Assembly: GCA_028283605.1 (NCBI GenBank)
Contig: JAPWKH010000014.1
Coordinates: 1-64,000 of the forward strand
Direction of reading: 5' to 3'
Length of the DNA stretch: 64,000 nt
From: Arachidicoccus sp.
Lineage (GTDB): Bacteria; Bacteroidota; Bacteroidia; Chitinophagales; Chitinophagaceae
Position 1 is the first letter of the stretch, and every line of letters starts with the position of its first letter. Under the pieces are notes generated by a model, which worked only from the letters and a program-made list of their open reading frames with translations, did no database searches and was not told the origin of the DNA. This document shows, piece by piece, positions 17,271-25,512 of the stretch. The position numbers and the translations under genes are program-made.

Positions 17271-17855
17271 TTAATTGTTTTGTACGAAATCTGTTTTGTA
17301 GTCAACAGTTATATTGTCTTTTACTTTCAATGCGCCAAGCATTGCTTTTGGAGGTTCTATTCCGTAATTGCTCATTGCAATGGGCTGGCTTCCTGTTACT
17401 TCCAGCTTATTGCCCGATGCAGTTATTTTTGCGTGTAACGTTGCGGGTTTGGAAACGCCGGCTATAGTCAGCGTACCGGCAGCAGCAATTGCAAATCCGC
17501 TTGCATTGGAAGGAATACTTTTGACGGGCGCTGTAAGTTTAAAAGTAATAGAAGGATATTTATCCGTATTCAATGCCTTGAATGTTTTATTATCCATAAT
17601 AGATCCTTCGGAGCTTTTAATCAGTTTGGCGTTTACATTAAAATTCAGGTCTGTGATACTGAATGTGCCGTTTGCTTCGCTGTTTACAGTTAAGGTTCCC
17701 GTAGCGGAACTTGCATTTTCTTTCCAGTCATGCAGATTAGAGCCTCCATTGATTATGATGGAATAACCCGTAGATAATTTGTAATTATTCTGCGCAAAAC
17801 TTGATATTGAAATCAGTCCTGCAAGTAATAGTAGAGATACTTTCGTTTTTTTCAT
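17271..17855 (-). CDS. YceI family protein
   Basis: A 194-residue periplasmic protein with a clear signal peptide (1-21, ending ISSFAQ) and a full YceI domain: GGSNLHDWKENASSATGTL, then DNKTFKALNTDKYPSITFKL and GVSKPATLHAKI, ending in KAMLGALKVKDNITVDY. YceI proteins bind isoprenoid quinone-like lipids and are often induced by stress or base. It is the first gene of the operon with the porin gene (47 bp) and the second YceI-like gene. The promoter must lie in the 316-bp interval shared with adhP. Confidence 0.9.
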   Translation of the reverse strand: MKKTKVSLLLLAGLISISSFAQNNYKLSTGYSIIINGGSNLHDWKENASSATGTLTVNSEANGTFSITDLNFNVNAKLIKSSEGSIMDNKTFKALNTDKYPSITFKLTAPVKSIPSNASGFAIAAAGTLTIAGVSKPATLHAKITASGNKLEVTGSQPIAMSNYGIEPPKAMLGALKVKDNITVDYKTDFVQNN

Positions 17856-18171
17856 TTTTTGAGATTTTAATAACTAAAGAAATTATTTATCATATCCGGC
17901 AAGTGGCCTTTTCTTTCCGATATTTGATAACACAAAATTCGATTTTGCAAACTCAGTCCACAATGATTACAGTTATACAATTCTTTGAACATAATCATAT
18001 CAGCGACTGATTTTAATCTGAAAAATATCCTCAGTGCGATAAATATGAATAATTGCTGATGGGTGTCATTTATACGATTAATGGAAGTCATAGAATACAG
18101 AAGAATGCTTTCCTTCTTTTGCAGGAGGAAGTTCTTGAGATTCAAATCCATCACTTTTTAAAAATTATAAA
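17856..18171. other. Divergent interval between yceI and adhP
   Basis: A 316-bp gap that must carry the promoters of the reverse yceI operon and the forward adhP gene. No TAnnTTTG element at a convincing place and no perfect TGAT-N4-ATCA site were found. A reverse open frame fills most of it and is listed separately with low confidence. Confidence 0.45.
17867..18151 (-). CDS. Doubtful small open reading frame
   Basis: A 94-residue frame counted from the ATG at 18151 (a GTG lies one codon earlier). It encodes a protein with many Leu, Ile and Phe and a CNHC pair ([15 protein letters not shown]). It would occupy nearly the whole interval between yceI and adhP, leaving no space for their promoters. 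There is no recognisable domain. It may be a real small protein or a chance frame; the location argues against it. Confidence 0.25.
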
Positions 18172-19206
18172 ATGATACCAAAAACAATGAAAGCCGCTGT
18201 GCTTCATGCATTCAACGAACCCTTAACCATAGAACAAGTCCCTGTTAAGGAGCCGGGCGAAAATCAAATACTGGTAAAAATTATCAGCAGCGGAGTTTGT
18301 CATACCGACTTACATGCATGTAAAGGAGACTGGCCGGTAAAACCTAAACTTCCATTAATACCCGGACATGAAGGAGTAGGTTATGTGGTGGCATTGGGTA
18401 AAGAAGTAAAAAATGTAAAAGAAGGAGATATTGTAGGTGTTCCTTGGTTGTTCAGTGCATGCGGATATTGCGAATACTGTATATCCGGCTGGGAAACTTT
18501 GTGCGAATCGCAACAAAACGGCGGTTACAGTGTCGACGGATGCTATGCGGAATATGTAGTCGCCGATGCCAGATATGTGGCGCATTTTCCTTTCGGAATA
18601 AATTTTAAAGAAATGGCTCCTATAACTTGTGCCGGTGTTACAGTTTACAAAGGGCTTAAAGAAACAGAAGCCAAACCGGGCGAATGGGTTGCTATATCAG
18701 GCATTGGCGGTTTAGGACATATAGCGGTGCAATATGCAAAAGCTATGGGATTGCATGTAGCTGCCATTGATGTGGACGATGAAAAATTAAAACTGGCGAA
18801 AAGCCTCGGTGCTGAGCTTACTGTAAATGCCAAGCAATATGATCCGGGAGAATATCTGAAAAAAGAGACCGGCGGAATGCATGGCGTTTTAGTAACAGCA
18901 GTATCGCCGATTGCATTTAAGCAAGGCATTTCTGCATTGCGCCGCAAAGGTACAATCGCTTTAAACGGATTGCCTCCCGGAAGTTTTAACCTGCCTATTT
19001 TTGATACGGTTCTTAATCGTTATACAGTAAGAGGTTCTATTGTAGGCACAAGAAAAGATATGATTGAAGCCATTCAATTTGCTGTAGAAGGAAAAGTAAA
19101 ACCTACTGTACATGTGGCAAAGTTAGAAGATATAAATTCTGTTCTTTACGAAATGGAAAAAGGAAAAATAGAAGGCCGCATAGTATTGGAAATAGCGGAG
19201 CCTTAG
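18172..19206 (+). CDS. adhP: Zinc-dependent alcohol dehydrogenase, AdhP type
   Basis: A 344-residue medium-chain dehydrogenase that interconverts primary alcohols such as ethanol and aldehydes with NAD. Catalytic zinc ligands are visible in [11 protein letters not shown] and PGHEGVG. The four structural-zinc cysteines are in [17 protein letters not shown], and the nucleotide-binding [17 protein letters not shown] is intact. The length fits the E. coli AdhP (336). It lies beside a stress-type regulatory module (PAS kinase, REC-CRP regulator, universal stress protein), which points to use under fermentative or low-oxygen conditions; that is inference from context. Confidence 0.92.
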
Positions 19207-19534
19207 CATGAATTTATATTTTGCTTTAAGTTGTTGTCGAAAATTAAATTACTATGATACAAATCATTTGTAAAGATGATTTGTATCATACGCTTATATA
19301 TTCCGGTAATTTAATTTAGTGTTCCTTTTTTTTGATATCAATATAACTAAAGGGGTCTATTAGCAATAGCATTAAATTTTATAAAAATGATTTTTATTAT
19401 AAATGATACAATTAGTTTGTTTGAGGATGTGTTAAAATGAATGTAATCAATATGAAATGCCCGTAAAACTTTTCCGAACCCAAGGCGATGATTATTTAAA
19501 GGCATTTTATCTGATTAAACAATAAAGGCAACAG
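19207..19534. other. Intergenic region with paired palindromes and leader copy C
   Basis: The 328 bp after adhP hold a large inverted repeat made of two TGAT-N4-ATCA sites (19253-19290), a further imperfect ATGATTTTTATTAT at about 19387-19400, and the third copy of the repeated leader (19453-19540). No intrinsic terminator with a T-run was seen after adhP. Confidence 0.6.
19253..19290. promoter_or_regulatory. Paired CRP/FNR-type sites in a perfect inverted repeat
   Basis: ATGATACAAATCAT (19254-19267) and ATGATTTGTATCAT (19276-19289) are perfect reverse complements with an 8-base spacer. Each arm is itself a TGAT-N4-ATCA dyad, the core recognised by FNR, FixK and CRP-like proteins. The dyad centres are 22 bp apart, two helical turns, so two dimers would sit on the same DNA face. 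A CRP/FNR-type regulator is encoded 700 bp away. No T-run follows, so it is not a normal terminator. Confidence 0.6.
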
Positions 19535-19540
19535 ATGAAA
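19453..19540 (+). promoter_or_regulatory. Repeated leader element, copy C (diverged)
   Basis: TGAAATGCCCGTAAAACTTT, CCCAAGGCGATGATTATTT, GGCATTTTATCTGATT and AACAGATGAAAG line up with leader copies A (4091-4184) and B (12021-12111) in the same order and spacing, again ending at a start codon (19535). Conserved positions are mainly TGAAATG, GATGATTATTT, ATT..ATCTGA and ACAGATGAAA. Confidence 0.5.
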
Positions 19541-19915
19541 GAAGCGCTATTATTACAATTTCAGCATGAAAGCAGTGGGTACAAACGTTTGATCCGTTTT
19601 TTGGCAGATGAAACTGTTTATATGAAAAACCGGATTACGGAAGTATTGCAAAATGATTTTCATAATAATATGCTGGAAGGTGTTGAATATTTTCAAAATG
19701 AATTTCTGAAGATCGATGAAATAATCGGATTCCTGAGAAATAGCATTGCTGAGTTGGATAGATATTTATCTAAAGATTTTTTTGAAGATAAAAACAAGAA
19801 AGAAACAAAAATGATAAGAGAGAGTTTATGTAAAAAAATAATTGTTGCTAAAAACAGGTTTTATGAATTGCAAACCAGATTTAATGATTTTTTACTGGCC
19901 AATATAGGCATATAA
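19535..19915 (+). CDS. Small helical protein of unknown function
   Basis: A 126-residue soluble protein predicted to be almost wholly alpha-helical, with heptad-like patterns (YFQNEFLKIDEIIGFLRNSI) and no cysteines except one. No signal peptide, membrane segment or known domain was recognised. The gene lies alone, forward, between the adhP gene and the convergent REC-CRP regulator, with leader copy C and possible CRP/FNR-type sites upstream. This suggests that it belongs to the same stress-linked group, but the job is unknown. Confidence 0.72.
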   Translation: MKEALLLQFQHESSGYKRLIRFLADETVYMKNRITEVLQNDFHNNMLEGVEYFQNEFLKIDEIIGFLRNSIAELDRYLSKDFFEDKNKKETKMIRESLCKKIIVAKNRFYELQTRFNDFLLANIGI

Positions 19916-19923
19916 TTAATATA

Positions 19924-20982
19924 CTAATTGTGCATATTTTCTAACTTCTTTTCATCGGTAACAATAATATTTCCATTTTTAATATCGATGATTTTTTCAT
20001 TTTTAAAATCGCCGAGCGTTCTTATTAAAGATTCGGTGGCAGTTCCCGCGATAGACGCCAGGCTTTCGCGGCTTATGTTTATTTCGAATGGATTGATGTT
20101 TTTGTCTTTATATTTTTTGATTAAAAGCAGCAGCGCATCTGCAACTTTTTTCCGCAGAGAATTATAAGCAAGCTTCAGCAATTGTTCTTCTTTGGTAGAA
20201 ACATTGTTTGCCAGCAATTGAACAAATTTTTGAGATACTTCCCAGTTATTATTCAGCAATTCGTCAAAATCTTCTTTGGGAATAATGGTAATTTCCGATT
20301 CTTCCAAAGCTTCCGCCGTGTCGCGGTAAGAGGTTTTTTCCAGCAATGGAATATAACCAAAAAAATCGCCGGCGCTGTACAAATCCGTTATCAATTCTTT
20401 GCCGTCATCATTTGTTCTGAATGTCTTGATCTTTCCGCTCATGACATAGAAAATTTTATTTGGCCTGTTACCTTCTGTATAAATTATCTGCTTCTTCTTA
20501 AATTTATCAATGTCTCTGTCAAGGGTTAAATCCTGCAATGCATTTTTATCGTGGGTAACTTTTAATAAATTGTTGAAGCCTTCCAATCCGTTGGCAACTT
20601 CCTGTTTTAATGCGTCTATTTTTTTTATTCTGCTGTCCACGGCATTTAACAGTTCTGTCCCGGTAAAAGGCTTGGTAATATAATCGTCCGCTCCAAGTTC
20701 CATACCTTTACGTATATCGGATCGTTCCGTTTTTGCTGTTAAAAATATAAATGGAATATTCTTTACGGATTTATTTTTTTGTAAACTATGCAGCACACCA
20801 AAACCGTCTAATACAGGCATCATTACATCACATATAATTAAATCCGGGATGTGCTTCAAAGCCTGTTCGATACCGGCTTTCCCGTTTTCCGCAGTAAATA
20901 CTTCATAATTGGATAATTCCAATATTTCGGCTGTATTGTTGCGGATATCATCATTGTCTTCTATAAGCAAAATTTTCTTCAT
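19924..20982 (-). CDS. Response regulator fused to CRP/FNR-type DNA-binding module
   Basis: A 352-residue protein with an unusual three-part layout. A receiver domain (1-120) has acidic residues E8/D9, phospho-acceptor D52 in IICDVMMPVLDG and the lysine in DDYITKPF. A short linker leads to a cyclic-nucleotide-binding-like beta-roll (about 150-270: FYVMSGKIKTFRTNDDGKEL, then GDFFGYIPLLE). A CRP-type winged helix ends the protein (about 285-345: ISRESLASIAGTATESLIRT). Iron-sulfur cysteines of FNR are absent, so control is probably by phosphorylation. One base separates it from the stop codon of the PAS kinase gene upstream, its evident partner. Likely targets are the TGAT-N4-ATCA sites at 19253-19290 and 22278-22291. 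Confidence 0.9.
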   Translation of the reverse strand: MKKILLIEDNDDIRNNTAEILELSNYEVFTAENGKAGIEQALKHIPDLIICDVMMPVLDGFGVLHSLQKNKSVKNIPFIFLTAKTERSDIRKGMELGADDYITKPFTGTELLNAVDSRIKKIDALKQEVANGLEGFNNLLKVTHDKNALQDLTLDRDIDKFKKKQIIYTEGNRPNKIFYVMSGKIKTFRTNDDGKELITDLYSAGDFFGYIPLLEKTSYRDTAEALEESEITIIPKEDFDELLNNNWEVSQKFVQLLANNVSTKEEQLLKLAYNSLRKKVADALLLLIKKYKDKNINPFEINISRESLASIAGTATESLIRTLGDFKNEKIIDIKNGNIIVTDEKKLENMHN

Positions 20983-20983
20983 A

Positions 20984-22204
20984 CTATAAAATTTCTAAAT
21001 TATTCGGCAATGCAACAATGAACTCTGAACCTTGATTAACAACGCTCTTGCATTGAATAGTGCCATTCATCAATTCTGCGTACTTTGCAACGATATGTAA
21101 ACCGAGTCCTGTTCCTTGTATGTTGGTTACATTTGCTCCTCTGAAAAAGCGCTGCATCAAATGTTTCTGATCTTCTTCGGAAATGCCTATGCCTTCGTCC
21201 TTTATGCATATTTTTATGCTGCTTTTATTTCCGTAGGAATGTATGGTAATGGCGGAATCTTCAGGAGAATATTTTACGGCATTTGAAATAAGATTCATCA
21301 TTATATGTTTCAACAGTACCGGATCCAACACTACAGCTGCATTGCCCTGATGGACATATGTTATTTCCTGACCTTTTTTTGCATTGTTTTCCAACTCTCT
21401 GACAAGATTGTTTATTAAATCCTGAATGTTGAACGAAGATAGTCGTACTTGTATTTTTCCTTCTTCTATTTTCCCGACGCTTAAAAAATCGTTCAGAATA
21501 TCAGTAAGCATTTGTACGGAAGAAATAATGCGCTGTATATGCTTTAAGCGTTTCGGCTGATCTTCCGTTGTCGTATATTTTTCTACTAGATAAGCAGAAG
21601 ATAAAACAGTACTGAGTGGTGTGCGGAATTCATGCGAGGCCATAGAAATAAAGCCAGATTTTAACTCATTAAGTTCTTTTTCTTTTTCCAGCAAAATGGA
21701 AAGTTCTTCTTTGGAATGCTCCAGTTCCAGCATCGCTTCCTTCAATTGCTTGGTTCTGTATTCAACGGTAGATTCTAAATTATTATTAAGTTCTTCAAGT
21801 TTTGCTTCTGCTTTTTTGCGAATAGAAATATCGCTGATAAAAGCGATAACGTGCTTGCCCTCTTTATCATTGTAATGGCTGAGGCTTACTTCTACAGGAA
21901 ATTCTGTTCCGTCTTTTTTCATGCCGAACAAATCCAACCCTACGCCCATCGGCCGGTTATTGGGCTTATGGATATAATTATTCCGATAATTTCCATGGTT
22001 ATGGTGATATCGTTGAGGAATTAACAATTCTATTTTGTTGCCTAAGATTTCATCAATTGTATATTTGAATAAATCTAATGCAAATGGATTAATGGATTGA
22101 ATAATAGCTTCTTCGTTTACAATAATGATACCAAGTGAAGCATAATTGAATAATGCCTCATACCTGTAAGAATTATCAAAAATGTTTTTAGCAGTAATGG
22201 CCAT
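20984..22204 (-). CDS. PAS-domain sensor histidine kinase
   Basis: A 406-residue soluble kinase without membrane segments. A PAS domain fills about residues 12-130, then a coiled coil (135-185), a HisKA domain with phospho-acceptor H191 in SMASHEFRTPL, and an ATPase domain with N-box MMNLISNAVKYS and G-boxes KDEGIGI and GTGLGLH. The PAS segment IPQRYHHNHGNYRNNY followed by RPMGVGLDLFG and KKDGTEFPVEVSLS resembles the FixL sensor region, with H70 at the place of the FixL haem-binding histidine. A large non-FixL PAS family also has this pattern, so haem binding is only possible. The REC-CRP regulator follows after one base. Confidence 0.88.
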   Translation of the reverse strand: MAITAKNIFDNSYRYEALFNYASLGIIIVNEEAIIQSINPFALDLFKYTIDEILGNKIELLIPQRYHHNHGNYRNNYIHKPNNRPMGVGLDLFGMKKDGTEFPVEVSLSHYNDKEGKHVIAFISDISIRKKAEAKLEELNNNLESTVEYRTKQLKEAMLELEHSKEELSILLEKEKELNELKSGFISMASHEFRTPLSTVLSSAYLVEKYTTTEDQPKRLKHIQRIISSVQMLTDILNDFLSVGKIEEGKIQVRLSSFNIQDLINNLVRELENNAKKGQEITYVHQGNAAVVLDPVLLKHIMMNLISNAVKYSPEDSAITIHSYGNKSSIKICIKDEGIGISEEDQKHLMQRFFRGANVTNIQGTGLGLHIVAKYAELMNGTIQCKSVVNQGSEFIVALPNNLEIL

Positions 22205-22277: not shown

Positions 22278-22291
22278 ATGATAAAAATCAT
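22278..22291. promoter_or_regulatory. CRP/FNR-type site ATGATAAAAATCAT
   Basis: A perfect TGAT-N4-ATCA dyad, with the A and T flanks also symmetric, in the divergent interval between the PAS kinase gene (start 22204) and the universal stress protein gene (start 22378). It is centred about 93 bases before the stress gene's ATG, a usual place for activation if the leader is about 50 nt long. Confidence 0.55.
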
Positions 22292-22377
22292 AAAACAGGC
22301 TATTGTCAGTCATTGCAAACGGCATGATGTGGATGCTATTTTTGTTGCTTGTTATTTTATTTTTAAATTGAGAAGAT

Positions 22378-23193
22378 ATGGAAAAGACAACTATTATTGC
22401 AGCAACTGATTTTAGTGATAATGCAAACCATGCAGTAGAATTTGCAGCAGATTTTGCAATGAGCATCAATGCTAAACTTGTAATTTTTAATGCCGTTTCC
22501 GTGCAGCCGTTGTTATACGATGATGCTATGCCTTTAACATTGTGGGATGATATGAAGCATTCTTCCAATAGCTATCTTTTAAATGTGAAAGAAGAAATGA
22601 TCAGGCATTCGAAAGGTCAGTTGAAGATAGATACACGCGAAGAAGTAGGGCTTGTAAACCATGAATTGCAGCATCTTTGTGTGCAAGAAAAACCGTTTGC
22701 CATATTTATCTCATCGCATTTAACAAGTATTCCCGAGAAGATTTTGATAGGCACGCATTCCATAAAAATTGCTAAAAGCAATTATGCGCCGGTAATCATT
22801 ATTCCGGAAAGTGAAAATTTTAAGCCTGTAAGAAAAATAGGTATTGCCGTAGATATTAAGGATAAAGATGAATTTCCTTTCAATGTTTTAAAAGAAAGGC
22901 TTAAATATTTACGGTCGGAAATAGAAATTGTATACATTCGGCAGAATCACGATATGTTATGCAAAAACGATGTTGCAGATGTATTAGATAAACTTCCCGG
23001 CTTTAATCCGAAATTGCGGATTATTGAAAACAAAAACATTGCAGAAGGCATTGATGAATACGTAAATGATTATGCTCCGGATATGCTGGTTATATATTCC
23101 AAAAAGCATGGATTGTTTCATAAAAGCATAAGCAATCCTTTCATATTACAACCGCAGGTGCCTACAATGATTATATCACAAACAACCAAATGA
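22378..23193 (+). CDS. Universal stress protein, tandem UspA domains
   Basis: A 271-residue protein with two UspA-type domains of about 135 residues each. The first begins TTIIAATDFSDNANHAVEFA and ends APVIIIPESE. The second (from about residue 147, VRKIGIAVDIKDKDEF) ends PQVPTMIISQ. The ATP-binding glycine-rich motif of the first domain is weakened (LIGTHSIKIAKSN). Tandem Usp proteins accumulate in stationary phase, starvation or low oxygen. The gene is divergent from the PAS kinase gene, and a CRP/FNR-type site sits between them, supporting control by the REC-CRP regulator. Confidence 0.9.
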   Translation: MEKTTIIAATDFSDNANHAVEFAADFAMSINAKLVIFNAVSVQPLLYDDAMPLTLWDDMKHSSNSYLLNVKEEMIRHSKGQLKIDTREEVGLVNHELQHLCVQEKPFAIFISSHLTSIPEKILIGTHSIKIAKSNYAPVIIIPESENFKPVRKIGIAVDIKDKDEFPFNVLKERLKYLRSEIEIVYIRQNHDMLCKNDVADVLDKLPGFNPKLRIIENKNIAEGIDEYVNDYAPDMLVIYSKKHGLFHKSISNPFILQPQVPTMIISQTTK

Positions 23194-23266: not shown

Positions 23267-23295
23267 TTGCCGTATGCTCAAAAATTATACTTTTG
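23267..23295 (+). promoter_or_regulatory. Promoter for a possibly leaderless mRNA
   Basis: TTG at 23267-23269 and TACTTTTG at 23288-23295 are 18 bases apart, a good Bacteroidota promoter. The -7 element ends only four bases before the ATG at 23300, so transcription would start at or very near the start codon. This supports the ATG at 23300 over the upstream in-frame start at 23267, which would lie inside the promoter. Confidence 0.5.
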
Positions 23296-23299
23296 GGCA

Positions 23300-24733
23300 A
23301 TGATAGAAGATAAGATAAAACAAACTTTTGCCTCATATATCAATGATAAAATAGAGCGTATCGAGAAGTTGCCGCAAAGCGGAAGCGACAGAATATATTT
23401 TCGTTTATATACACAAGGCAAAACGTATATAGCAACTGTAAACAATAATGAAAAAGAAAATAAAACCTTCATATATTTTTCATTACATTTTAAAAAAATA
23501 AATCTCCCTGTTCCTACAATATATGCTGTTTCGGACGATTCGCTGACATACATTCAGGAAGATTTTGGCAACGATTCATTATCATTCATTCTTGATGAAG
23601 AAGGCCATAGCGAAAGGGTTTACGAACTGTTTAAAAAGAGTTTAAAACAATTAGCGCGCTTGCAGATAGAAGGCAACAAAGGCATTAATTATGATATGTC
23701 TTTAACCGCGCGGGAATTTGGCAAGCAGGCCATTCTCAGCGATCTGCTTTATTTCAAATACTATTTTTTAGATACGCTCGGCTTGCCTTATGACAAGCAA
23801 ACATTGATAAATGAATTTGAGGCTTTATCGGTTTTTCTTACACAAACACGTTACAAATACTTTATGTTTCGCGATTTTCAAAGCAGGAACATTATGATAA
23901 AAGACGAGGAGGTTTTTTTTATAGATTATCAAGGCGGCATGCAGGGAGCGCTGCAATACGATGTGGCTTCATTGCTATGGCAAGCGAAAGCAGGTTTGAG
24001 CGATGAATGGAAATCTTCCTTATTGGAACATTATATAAAAGAAATAGATTCGATTTTAGATAAGCCAGTTGATAAAGATATTTTCGTCAATCAATACAAA
24101 GGATATGTTTTGATACGCTTATTGCAGGTATTAGGCGCGTATGGTTTCAGGGGTTTGTTTGAGCGCAAGGCGCATTTTCTTACAAGCATTCCTTTAGCGC
24201 TAAAAAATCTACGATGGTTTGTAAATAACCGCTCCATTGGAATGGAATTGCCGGAATTAGACGCTATATTAAAAACGATTGTAAGCGATGAAATCGTAAA
24301 CCGTTTTACGCCTTTGCAAGCCGACGAAAACACGCCTTTGGTTGTGGAAATAAACAGCTTTTCTTATAAAAAACAAATACCGGCAGATACTTCAGATAAC
24401 GGAGGCGGATTTGTATTTGATTGCAGGGGAATATTAAATCCGGGAAGAATTGAGCAGTATAAAATTTTATCAGGACTGGACAAACCTGTGCAGGATTACC
24501 TCGAACAATATACGCAGATGAATAATTTTCTGAATAGTGTTTATGATCTGGTAGATATATCTGTAGAGAATTATTTGAAGCGCGGCTTCCATCATCTGCA
24601 AATTAATTTCGGTTGTACGGGCGGGCAGCATCGCAGCGTTTATGCAGCTTTGCAAACCGCAAGGCATTTGAGAAATAAATTTAAAGTCAAAGTAATCCTG
24701 AACCATACCAACGAACAGAATTGGGTTAAATAA
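23300..24733 (+). CDS. AmgK-like sugar kinase fused to RapZ C-terminal domain
   Basis: A 477-residue fusion counted from the ATG at 23300. Residues about 1-320 form an aminoglycoside-phosphotransferase-like kinase: the Brenner-type loop FRDFQSRNIM and the metal site FIDYQGG followed by QYDVASLL match AmgK, which phosphorylates N-acetylmuramate and GlcNAc at C1 during wall recycling. Residues about 350-477 match the C-terminal half of RapZ (VFDCRGILNPGR, GLDKPVQDYLE, INFGCTGGQHRSVYAA), the part that senses glucosamine-6-phosphate and binds RNA or regulators in E. coli. The RapZ N-terminal ATPase is missing. The MurU-like gene follows 62 bp on, so recycling of wall amino sugars is the best reading. 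Confidence 0.85.
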   Translation: MIEDKIKQTFASYINDKIERIEKLPQSGSDRIYFRLYTQGKTYIATVNNNEKENKTFIYFSLHFKKINLPVPTIYAVSDDSLTYIQEDFGNDSLSFILDEEGHSERVYELFKKSLKQLARLQIEGNKGINYDMSLTAREFGKQAILSDLLYFKYYFLDTLGLPYDKQTLINEFEALSVFLTQTRYKYFMFRDFQSRNIMIKDEEVFFIDYQGGMQGALQYDVASLLWQAKAGLSDEWKSSLLEHYIKEIDSILDKPVDKDIFVNQYKGYVLIRLLQVLGAYGFRGLFERKAHFLTSIPLALKNLRWFVNNRSIGMELPELDAILKTIVSDEIVNRFTPLQADENTPLVVEINSFSYKKQIPADTSDNGGGFVFDCRGILNPGRIEQYKILSGLDKPVQDYLEQYTQMNNFLNSVYDLVDISVENYLKRGFHHLQINFGCTGGQHRSVYAALQTARHLRNKFKVKVILNHTNEQNWVK

Positions 24734-24795
24734 TAAATAAAAAGTAACGCCCCCATATATTTTTTAATTTTTACTTGTCAATATTAATCATCACA

Positions 24796-25512
24796 ATGAA
24801 AGCAATGTTACTTTCCGCGGGTCTTGGAACAAGATTGAAACCCTGGACAGACAGCCATCCCAAAGCGCTGGCAATCGTTAATGGAAAGAGTCTGTTGCAA
24901 CGCAATATTGAATTTTTACAACAATACGGAATCAGAGATGTAATTGTAAATGTGCATCATTTCGCGGATCAAATTATTGAAGCAATTAATAATAATAAAA
25001 GCTGGGGATCAAACATTACAATTTCAGATGAAACAGGAGAGGTGCTGGAAACCGGCGGCGGATTGAAAAAAGCGGAATGGTATTTTAAAGAAGAAAAAGA
25101 TTTTTTGCTGATGAATGCAGATGTTTTGACAGATATAAATCTTCATCAATTTATCGAAACGCATCGGATTCAAGAAAATTTAGCCACACTTGCAGTAAGT
25201 GAAAGAAAATCTTCCCGATATTTTTTATTTGACGAAAAAAATCTTTTGTGCGGTTGGGAAAATATAAATACAGGAGAGAAAAGAATTACCCGAAAAACTG
25301 AAACGTACACACCGTTTGCATTCAGCGGCATACATTGTATTAATTCAAAAATTTTCCCGCTTATAAAAAAAGAAGGAAAATTTTCTATTGTGGATACTTA
25401 TCTGGAATTATCCTCGAGATATGATATTGACTGTTACAATCATACCGGCAATAAATTTATAGATGTAGGAAAGCCGGATACTCTTGAGCAGGCAGGGAAT
25501 ATTTTTCGATAA
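24796..25512 (+). CDS. MurU-like nucleotidyltransferase
   Basis: A 238-residue sugar-1-phosphate nucleotidyltransferase, starting at MKAMLLSAGLGTRLKPWT (an upstream in-frame start at 24775 is less likely). The nucleotide-binding signature GLGTRLKPWTDSHPKAL and the metal-binding aspartate in LLMNADVLTD are intact. The length matches MurU (223-240), which makes UDP-MurNAc from MurNAc-1-phosphate, rather than longer glucose or GlcNAc enzymes. It follows the AmgK-RapZ fusion, and AmgK with MurU is an established bypass that returns MurNAc to UDP-MurNAc. Substrate specificity is inferred from that pairing. Confidence 0.82.
   Translation: MKAMLLSAGLGTRLKPWTDSHPKALAIVNGKSLLQRNIEFLQQYGIRDVIVNVHHFADQIIEAINNNKSWGSNITISDETGEVLETGGGLKKAEWYFKEEKDFLLMNADVLTDINLHQFIETHRIQENLATLAVSERKSSRYFLFDEKNLLCGWENINTGEKRITRKTETYTPFAFSGIHCINSKIFPLIKKEGKFSIVDTYLELSSRYDIDCYNHTGNKFIDVGKPDTLEQAGNIFR

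Follow-up and report, generated by a model that had tools for sequence, protein, structure and literature searches.

A PAS histidine kinase and a receiver-CRP/FNR fusion regulator of Bacteroidota, with a predicted double operator and linkage to low-oxygen genes

What does a histidine kinase sense, and which genes does it control, when its partner joins a two-component receiver directly to a CRP/FNR-type output? This question is raised by a 64,000-nucleotide stretch of Arachidicoccus sp. DNA (GenBank assembly GCA_028283605.1, contig JAPWKH010000014.1, positions 1 to 64,000; hereafter the window), in which a PAS histidine kinase gene and a gene for such a fusion protein (REC-CRP) lie on the minus strand, separated by one base (20983). 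We consider it probable that they form a two-component low-oxygen switch, in which a haem-PAS kinase would phosphorylate Asp52 of REC-CRP, which would then act at a double operator. Computation gave us the domains, the conserved phosphorylation residues, the gene linkage, the operator with its spacing and the resemblance of the sensor to haem PAS domains. The pair comprises the following features.

20984-22204, minus strand: PAS histidine kinase, 406 amino acids (open reading frame list; Pfam PAS 14-126, HisKA 182-249, HATPase_c 294-401)
21827-22165, minus strand: PAS domain of the kinase, predicted haem PAS (Pfam, PDB sequence matches, AlphaFold, Foldseek)
21995-21997, minus strand: His70 codon, at the position of the haem-binding His in FixL and FG214 (alignment)
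21632-21634, minus strand: His191 codon, predicted phospho-accepting His of the kinase (alignment of 66 kinases)
19924-20982, minus strand: REC-CRP response regulator, 352 amino acids (open reading frame list, Pfam, family alignment, structure model)
20638-20973, minus strand: receiver domain, amino acids 4-115 (Pfam Response_reg)
20827-20829, minus strand: Asp52 codon, predicted phosphorylation site (Asp in 78/78 loci)
20245-20505, minus strand: cNMP-binding-like beta-roll, amino acids 160-246 (Pfam cNMP_binding and family alignment)
19936-20148, minus strand: CRP-type winged helix, amino acids 279-349 (Pfam HTH_Crp_2 and alignment), with recognition helix TATESLIR containing E317 and R321

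The gene pair, its distribution and its neighbours

All Pfam domains of the two proteins exceeded the curated cut-offs. An original prediction, made from the sequence before any database search, had described a receiver fused to a cyclic-nucleotide-like beta-roll and a CRP-type winged helix, and Response_reg, cNMP_binding and HTH_Crp_2 were indeed all found over their cut-offs; the one-base gap, D52, H70 and the other domains that it named were likewise borne out by the reading frame coordinates, Pfam and alignment. The family was studied in 78 loci, consisting of the window, 37 loci from named genomes and 40 of 48 matches from relatives (the eight lowest-listed were omitted), with genes called mechanically as longest open reading frames. 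The hallmarks of a two-component system are present, namely HisKA with its phospho-accepting His, HATPase_c, and a receiver with Asp, Thr/Ser and Lys: D52 and K104 of REC-CRP were identical in all 78 loci, residue 82 was Thr in 73 and Ser in five, and His191 of the kinase was conserved in 65 of 66 aligned kinases, with a gap in the remaining one. The output half has both the cNMP_binding beta-roll and the HTH_Crp winged helix that define the CRP/FNR superfamily, with E317 and R321 of the recognition helix invariant across the 78 loci. The AlphaFold model of REC-CRP (predicted local distance difference test score, pLDDT, 85.2; predicted template modelling score, pTM, 0.55) shows the receiver joined by a low-confidence linker (128-146) to a CRP fold that includes a long helix (247-273), and Foldseek grouped the output half with CRP/FNR proteins.

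How widespread this architecture is had been posed as a question by the original prediction, and the answer is that it is not rare. REC-CRP was present in 56 of 395 genomes sampled from the phylum Bacteroidota (E <= 1e-50), spread over nine families. The named genome collection contained at least 37 full-length proteins among the 80 loci listed, all from Bacteroidota, and 38 of 59 genomes, the window's own included, had a full-length REC-CRP, presence being assigned by reading the search matches (full-length at about 1e-80 or better). Because of its occurrence in so many genomes and families, the fusion is an old, common and conserved architecture and no oddity of this organism. In 61 of the 78 loci the gene immediately upstream, on the same strand, was a kinase of the same family, with a median gap of -1 base (using mechanical reading frame starts). 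Among the 17 loci lacking an adjoining upstream kinase, two end at the locus edge with no upstream gene call. Genomes G007, G013 and G014 have a kinase of the same PAS type and a REC-CRP gene on opposite sides of a fix cluster.

For the neighbourhood, the eight genes on each side of REC-CRP were clustered, and each cluster was named from one representative (Pfam, some NCBIfam). The cbb3 oxidase genes fixNO lay within eight genes of REC-CRP in 18/78 loci and any Fix gene in 23/78, the other Fix neighbours being a FixI-like metal ATPase (21), FixP (17), FixG (14) and FixH (13). A rough calculation puts the chance expectation for any given cluster, with 16-kb loci and a 4.5-Mb genome, at about 0.3 of 78 loci. 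On the REC-CRP tree the fix label needed 15 changes, at least 13 of them forced by supported branches, and the linkage must therefore have formed more than once. Stress-type neighbours were universal stress proteins (Usp; 22 loci, three clusters), HSP20 (16) and CBS proteins (9), while HemN (5), SCO1 (4), Sec-dependent NosZ (4) and a ScdA/hemerythrin protein (4, by Pfam; under the NCBIfam RIC cut-off) were rarer. The low-oxygen linkage in relatives thus involves fixNOPGH and, in fewer loci, nosZ and hemN. The proposal that REC-CRP combines FixJ and FixK in a single chain, as part of a low-oxygen module, gains support from this fixNOPGH linkage, from the FNR-like operator before fixNO and from the haem-PAS resemblance, both described below.

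A predicted double operator

When all 5-mer palindromes with gaps of 0-10 were counted in the intergenic DNA of the 78 loci, ATGAT-N4-ATCAT came out on top (runs of N apart), with 31 sites in 20 loci versus five in the 1.12 Mb of coding DNA, which is eight times as long as the intergenic DNA. In 100 shuffles the mean was 0.52 sites. The motif had first been spotted by eye in the window, and 28 sites are left when the window is excluded. Each of the 31 perfect boxes precedes one or more mechanically called gene starts, in one case at a distance of over 1 kb. The FNR box, TTGAT-N4-ATCAA, differs in the outer base, which Ser212 of FNR is thought to read; we take Ile320 of REC-CRP to occupy that position.

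The boxes are paired. From a perfect box to any 8/10 box, a distance of 22 base pairs (bp) gave 23 counts versus at most six elsewhere (perfect-perfect pairs being counted twice). Intergenic TGAT-N4-ATCA pairs with up to two mismatches numbered 76 at spacing 22, in 39 of the 78 loci, versus 0-6 at each of 26 other spacings between 14 and 40 bp; shuffled intergenic DNA held a mean of 0.05 such pairs (20 shuffles) and coding DNA held 10. The predicted operator is written here as two ATGAT-N4-ATCAT boxes at a fixed 22-bp spacing. A pair lay within 450 bp upstream of 12/18 fixNO, 8/15 fixI, 6/17 hsp20 and 2/5 hemN genes, and of 6/18 genes of a family of 126-amino-acid proteins that includes a neighbour in the window; for comparison, this was so for 35/639 unassigned genes and for none of the operon-internal fixG (0/14) and fixP (0/16) genes.

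The window holds five spacing-22 pairs at up to three mismatches, versus 0.9 (maximum 4) over 60 shuffles. Every one of the five sits in this cluster, in the YceI-adhP, adhP-126-amino-acid and kinase-Usp intergenic stretches. The pair at 19254-19289 is the only mismatch-free one in its own genome. The boxes and the genes beside them are as follows.

17271-17855, minus strand: YceI-family protein, possible target (Pfam; boxes nearby)
17964-18019, unstranded: three boxes in 22-bp steps between YceI and adhP (pairs at 17964, 3 mismatches, and 17986, 2 mismatches, with one box shared)
18057-18090, unstranded: weak double box, 3 mismatches, upstream of adhP (box scan)
18172-19206, plus strand: adhP alcohol dehydrogenase, possible target (passes the NCBIfam AdhP cut-off; boxes nearby)
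19254-19289, unstranded: perfect double box before the 126-amino-acid gene, made of two ATGAT-N4-ATCAT palindromes at 22-bp spacing (box scan)
19535-19915, plus strand: 126-amino-acid protein, function not assigned (open reading frame list)
22278-22312, unstranded: perfect single box (22278-22291) and a weak second box 22 bp on, between kinase and Usp; 3 mismatches as a pair (box scan)
22337-22344, plus strand: candidate Bacteroidota -7 element TATTTTTG for the Usp gene, with TTG 21 bp upstream
22378-23193, plus strand: universal stress protein gene (271 amino acids), divergent from the kinase, probable target (Pfam; box)

The names that the original prediction gave to these neighbours stand for adhP, YceI and Usp, the latter two by Pfam cut-offs; its description of the Usp as tandem does not, as Pfam sees one Usp stretch in the 271-amino-acid protein. 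A mechanical open reading frame of 95 amino acids (17867-18154, minus strand) overlaps the three-box stretch. The 126-amino-acid family (about 126-134 amino acids) occurs at 19/78 loci; the members scanned had no NCBIfam match and no Pfam match over the cut-off, and the window member had none at E 0.001. Another member lies at L042:9068-9472. A second family, C7 (about 132-135 amino acids), was seen at 15/78 loci, and its representative (L059:5447-5845) had no Pfam or NCBIfam match. Further along the window, a gene at 23267-24733 encodes an APH-type phosphotransferase domain fused to a RapZ C-terminal domain (Pfam) and is followed at 24775-25512 by a nucleotidyltransferase-like gene (named by eye).

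Across genomes, pairs with up to two mismatches were denser in the 38 genomes with REC-CRP than in the 21 without (1.95 versus 1.03 per Mb; Mann-Whitney p 8e-5), genome size and base composition being uncontrolled between the two sets. A control with the reversed pattern was not taken as background, since that pattern includes TAG and is avoided in coding DNA. Upstream of fixNO, the best 22-bp pair scored on average 16.3/20 in 26 genomes with REC-CRP versus 14.9 in seven without. In the same comparison, as raw counts, pairs scoring at least 17 were found in 14/26 versus 1/7 and a perfect single box in 7/26 versus 0/7; 22 bp was the sole best spacing in 11/26 versus 2/7. Five more FixN-like stretches with a partial FixO match were included in the single-box scan and omitted from the pair scoring.

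The window's own genome has nine pairs, six of them outside called reading frames. Two of these six are in this cluster; others lie before an OmpW gene, before a SnoaL-like gene, between two unassigned genes, and, on contig C10, before a pyridoxamine-oxidase-like/HdeD-like gene pair (named by eye). The three within reading frames are probably there by chance. In a chosen few of the relatives' pairs, the neighbours were a pyruvate:ferredoxin oxidoreductase operon and a c-type cytochrome (G010), a COX2-domain protein (G003 and G005, of the window's own genus), and ethylbenzene-dehydrogenase-like and Fe-S protein genes (G028); some pairs lay near genes with no such tie, or within a reading frame. 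At one locus of G028 (L385; G028:C94:54000-70000), possibly an anaerobic respiratory island, an 8-kb stretch carries double boxes at three points: before an Fe-S protein gene, before an ethylbenzene-dehydrogenase-like gene and before an unassigned gene of 429 amino acids. A c-type cytochrome gene lies nearby.

The PAS sensor domain

With the PAS domain of the kinase as query, all 14 PDB sequence matches at E <= 1e-5 were haem PAS domains (FixL, DosP, FG214). Its AlphaFold model (pLDDT 92.5) gave haem PAS domains in the first 23 Foldseek rows (FixL, FG214, EcDOS, DosP), and LOV domains entered at row 24, mixed with further haem PAS domains. Four control PAS domains from relatives, all without the His at this position, behaved differently: two had no PDB match, one matched 3lyx first, with weaker DosP and 10jx below, and one matched LOV domains and other kinases. 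For the fix-linked kinase L306, FixL was the best PDB match.

His70, which had been placed at the haem-histidine position of FixL, does align with that His and with His156 of FG214; it is His in 57 of 66 family kinases. A preprint on FG214 (PMC13060918) gives His156 as the proximal haem ligand and describes a redox-linked haem PAS with Met172 as a possible distal ligand. FG214 (PDB 10jx) shares with the kinase the PAS domain, the proximal His, a Met at +16 (Met86, at the position of Met172; Met in 46/66 kinases) and a Leu at +20. Unlike the kinase, FG214 is a one-component transcription factor of the HTH-PAS type, and it has another haem His (H175) where the kinase has Gly89. From these alignments and structural matches, haem is likely to be bound by the PAS domain.

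The idea that His70 is a generic PAS feature was rejected, as only 6 of 60 distinct PAS_9 domains from 24 genomes have His there, the 60 being the better-scoring matches and not a random sample. Of the loci concerned, L297 and L302 overlap REC-CRP loci, L289 adjoins the REC-CRP of G043, and L306, L307 and L309 are within about 6 kb of FixO matches. An earlier background (His in 3/49) was dropped because 24 of its domains had a gap at that position. The window's own genome also carries a broken copy of the same PAS kinase, again with the His (L203, 1391-1588 and downstream; G000:C10 near 104729). It starts like the window's kinase before the frame is lost, lies downstream of a P-type ATPase-like gene and is about 16 kb from the operator at C10:88438.

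Proposed mechanism, rival explanations and known systems

Haem, the signal, phosphotransfer, DNA binding and activation are the steps that we infer. Haem would be bound at His70; a change in gas or redox state there, most likely in oxygen, would affect how the kinase autophosphorylates at His191. From His191 the phosphoryl group would move to Asp52 of REC-CRP, whose gene lies one base downstream. Because REC-CRP has neither the cysteine cluster of FNR nor the residues with which CRP holds cyclic AMP (cAMP), phosphorylation would serve as its switch in place of the usual ligand. Once phosphorylated, REC-CRP would occupy ATGAT-N4-ATCAT-N8-ATGAT-N4-ATCAT as a side-by-side pair of dimers separated by two helical turns. 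There it would activate its own operon together with the Usp gene, the 126-amino-acid gene and probably adhP and the YceI operon; in relatives the targets would be fixNO, some fixI, hemN and hsp20 genes. Since the 22-bp phasing is fixed, the receivers of adjacent dimers may pair. We accordingly put forward, as a plausible though tentative extension, a phosphorylation-gated REC-CRP in which the phosphorylated receivers of neighbouring dimers pair and lock two CRP dimers on a 36-bp operator with boxes 22 bp apart, a widespread Bacteroidota alternative to FixLJ-FixK whose receiver replaces both FixJ and the ligand or Fe-S switch.

Several results weigh against a REC-CRP low-oxygen switch as drawn here. 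The nosZ genes near REC-CRP had no pair within 450 bp (0/4), and only 11 of 61 kinase genes carried one within 450 bp upstream. When pairs with up to three mismatches are counted in the window by itself, spacing 22 (five pairs) barely exceeds spacings 30 and 31 (four each), other spacings giving 0-4. Single perfect boxes were alike in genomes with and without REC-CRP (3.67 versus 3.41 per Mb, p 0.46); genome-wide single-box counts were therefore dropped as evidence for REC-CRP and the double box was used instead. Pairs also occur in genomes that lack REC-CRP, with 11 in G015 and a 17/20 pair upstream of fixNO in G035. The original prediction had read a low-oxygen or stress module from the neighbouring genes, and the fix linkage in relatives supports that module; adhP and YceI, the neighbours from which it was read, do not, each recurring at only 3/78 loci, as does a porin-like gene. 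No cbb3 oxidase (FixO) was found in the window's own genome, which is 98.9% complete, and the switch must therefore serve other genes there. That genome encodes CydA, and cytochrome bd was rejected as a target since no 9/10 box lies within about 450 bp upstream of its cydA; in the cydA regions of 16 relatives, isolated 9/10 sites occurred in three, two of them within an open frame. Finally, the kinase has Leu90 at +20, the site of the distal Arg220 of FixL (R220 in B. japonicum). Among the 66 family kinases this position is Arg in 29 and Met in 13, and it is Leu in FG214 as in the window.

The missing distal Arg leaves room for another signal. The kinase that feeds the same regulator and operator could respond to nitric oxide, carbon monoxide, redox state or general stress, whether or not it carries haem, and the low-oxygen genes would then make up only part of the regulon. 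Met86, matching the Met of redox-linked FG214, fits such a role, as do the ScdA/hemerythrin (RIC-like), NosZ, HSP20, Usp and CBS proteins among the neighbours. The named gene most often tied to the double box is, however, the cbb3 oxidase fixNO, an enzyme used for respiration at low oxygen, and we regard the other-signal explanation as possible but on balance doubtful. A stress system of a generic kind, with the fix linkage and the boxes incidental to the clustering of stress genes, would account for Usp and HSP20 at so many loci; it sits badly with a fix linkage that arose repeatedly and independently and with a box spacing fixed to the base pair, and we think it very improbable.

The double boxes might instead belong mainly to standalone FNR-like proteins, with REC-CRP binding secondarily or elsewhere. 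Six standalone CRP/FNR proteins near fixNO in relatives (L212, L213, L214, L215, L222 and L234) share the REC-CRP recognition helix, TATE[ST]xIR, which also counts against a role for REC-CRP alone; five have the N-terminal CxxC-x8-C of the Fe-S FNR type, the third cysteine of this pattern being absent at that place in L212. The pair in G035, too, fits such an explanation. We have accordingly rejected as unproven the notion that the boxes are exclusively those of REC-CRP. On the other side, pair density tracks REC-CRP presence, and the window has a perfect double box although the other candidates of its genome read differently at the recognition helix: TARVVVSR in the only other HTH_Crp_2 match over the cut-off, and TRETLSR in the one of 15 other cNMP_binding matches that aligned over the helix (tblastn). 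Standalone proteins as the main readers therefore seem unlikely to us, and REC-CRP is the likely reader of the window's boxes, judging by these helices. Because the helix is common to both kinds of protein, REC-CRP and the standalone FNR-like proteins probably share the box. In alphaproteobacteria FnrN and FixK share theirs, according to PMC4999443. At L247 (2051-2674, 3018-4632), the own genome's standalone Crp/Fnr gene adjoins a TauE/SafE-like transporter gene and a frame-split transposase-like gene (named by eye).

The closest known system is the FixL-FixJ-FixK cascade of alphaproteobacteria, which PMC4999443 describes as a PAS kinase, a receiver regulator and a CRP/FNR-family output. The window's system is alike in its haem-type PAS kinase, its receiver-based regulator, its CRP/FNR-family output and the cbb3 oxidase among its candidate targets (here, through the pairs before fixNO), and it differs in having receiver and output in one protein, in its 22-bp-spaced double box and in a kinase without the distal Arg of FixL. 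FixJ is a receiver with a LuxR/NarL-type (GerE) output, whereas the output of REC-CRP is cNMP_binding plus HTH_Crp_2, with no FixJ-type domain. FixK has no receiver, and its targets include the cbb3 oxidase; REC-CRP is likewise a cysteine-free CRP/FNR-type protein with FNR-like candidate boxes at fix genes, but it bears a receiver. With FNR and FnrN it shares the TGAT/ATCA half-site, respiratory targets and the Glu and Arg known from the FNR recognition helix; it differs in its N-terminal receiver and in lacking their cysteine cluster, its only conserved cysteine being C51, next to D52 in the receiver (76/78 loci). It shares the CRP fold in its output half (Foldseek), but the cAMP pocket residues of CRP (E72, R82, S83) are not kept: Y210 and D221 presumably stand at the Glu72 and Ser83 positions (aligned by eye), R220 varies across the family, and residue 221 is Glu or Asp in 67/78 loci. 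We found no paper on a REC-CRP/FNR fusion regulator of Bacteroidota in open-licence PubMed Central, and earlier mention in domain censuses is possible. The parts are known; what we did not find in this incomplete, open-licence literature is the combination of a haem-type PAS kinase, a receiver-fused, cysteine-free CRP/FNR output, a 22-bp double FNR-like box and low-oxygen targets.

Bacteroidota are abundant in soils, waters and treatment plants, and to our knowledge there has been little insight into how they regulate low-oxygen genes such as those for cbb3 oxidase and nitrous oxide reductase. The family offers a named sensor-regulator pair, a candidate haem ligand and an exact predicted operator that can be used for regulon prediction. 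The fixed 22-bp double box also brings a mechanistic question within reach of testing, namely how phosphorylation would control a CRP-type protein that would dimerise anyway. If the tentative two-dimer extension is right, REC-CRP would be a widespread Bacteroidota counterpart to FixLJ-FixK, with a receiver as the switch of a CRP/FNR protein.

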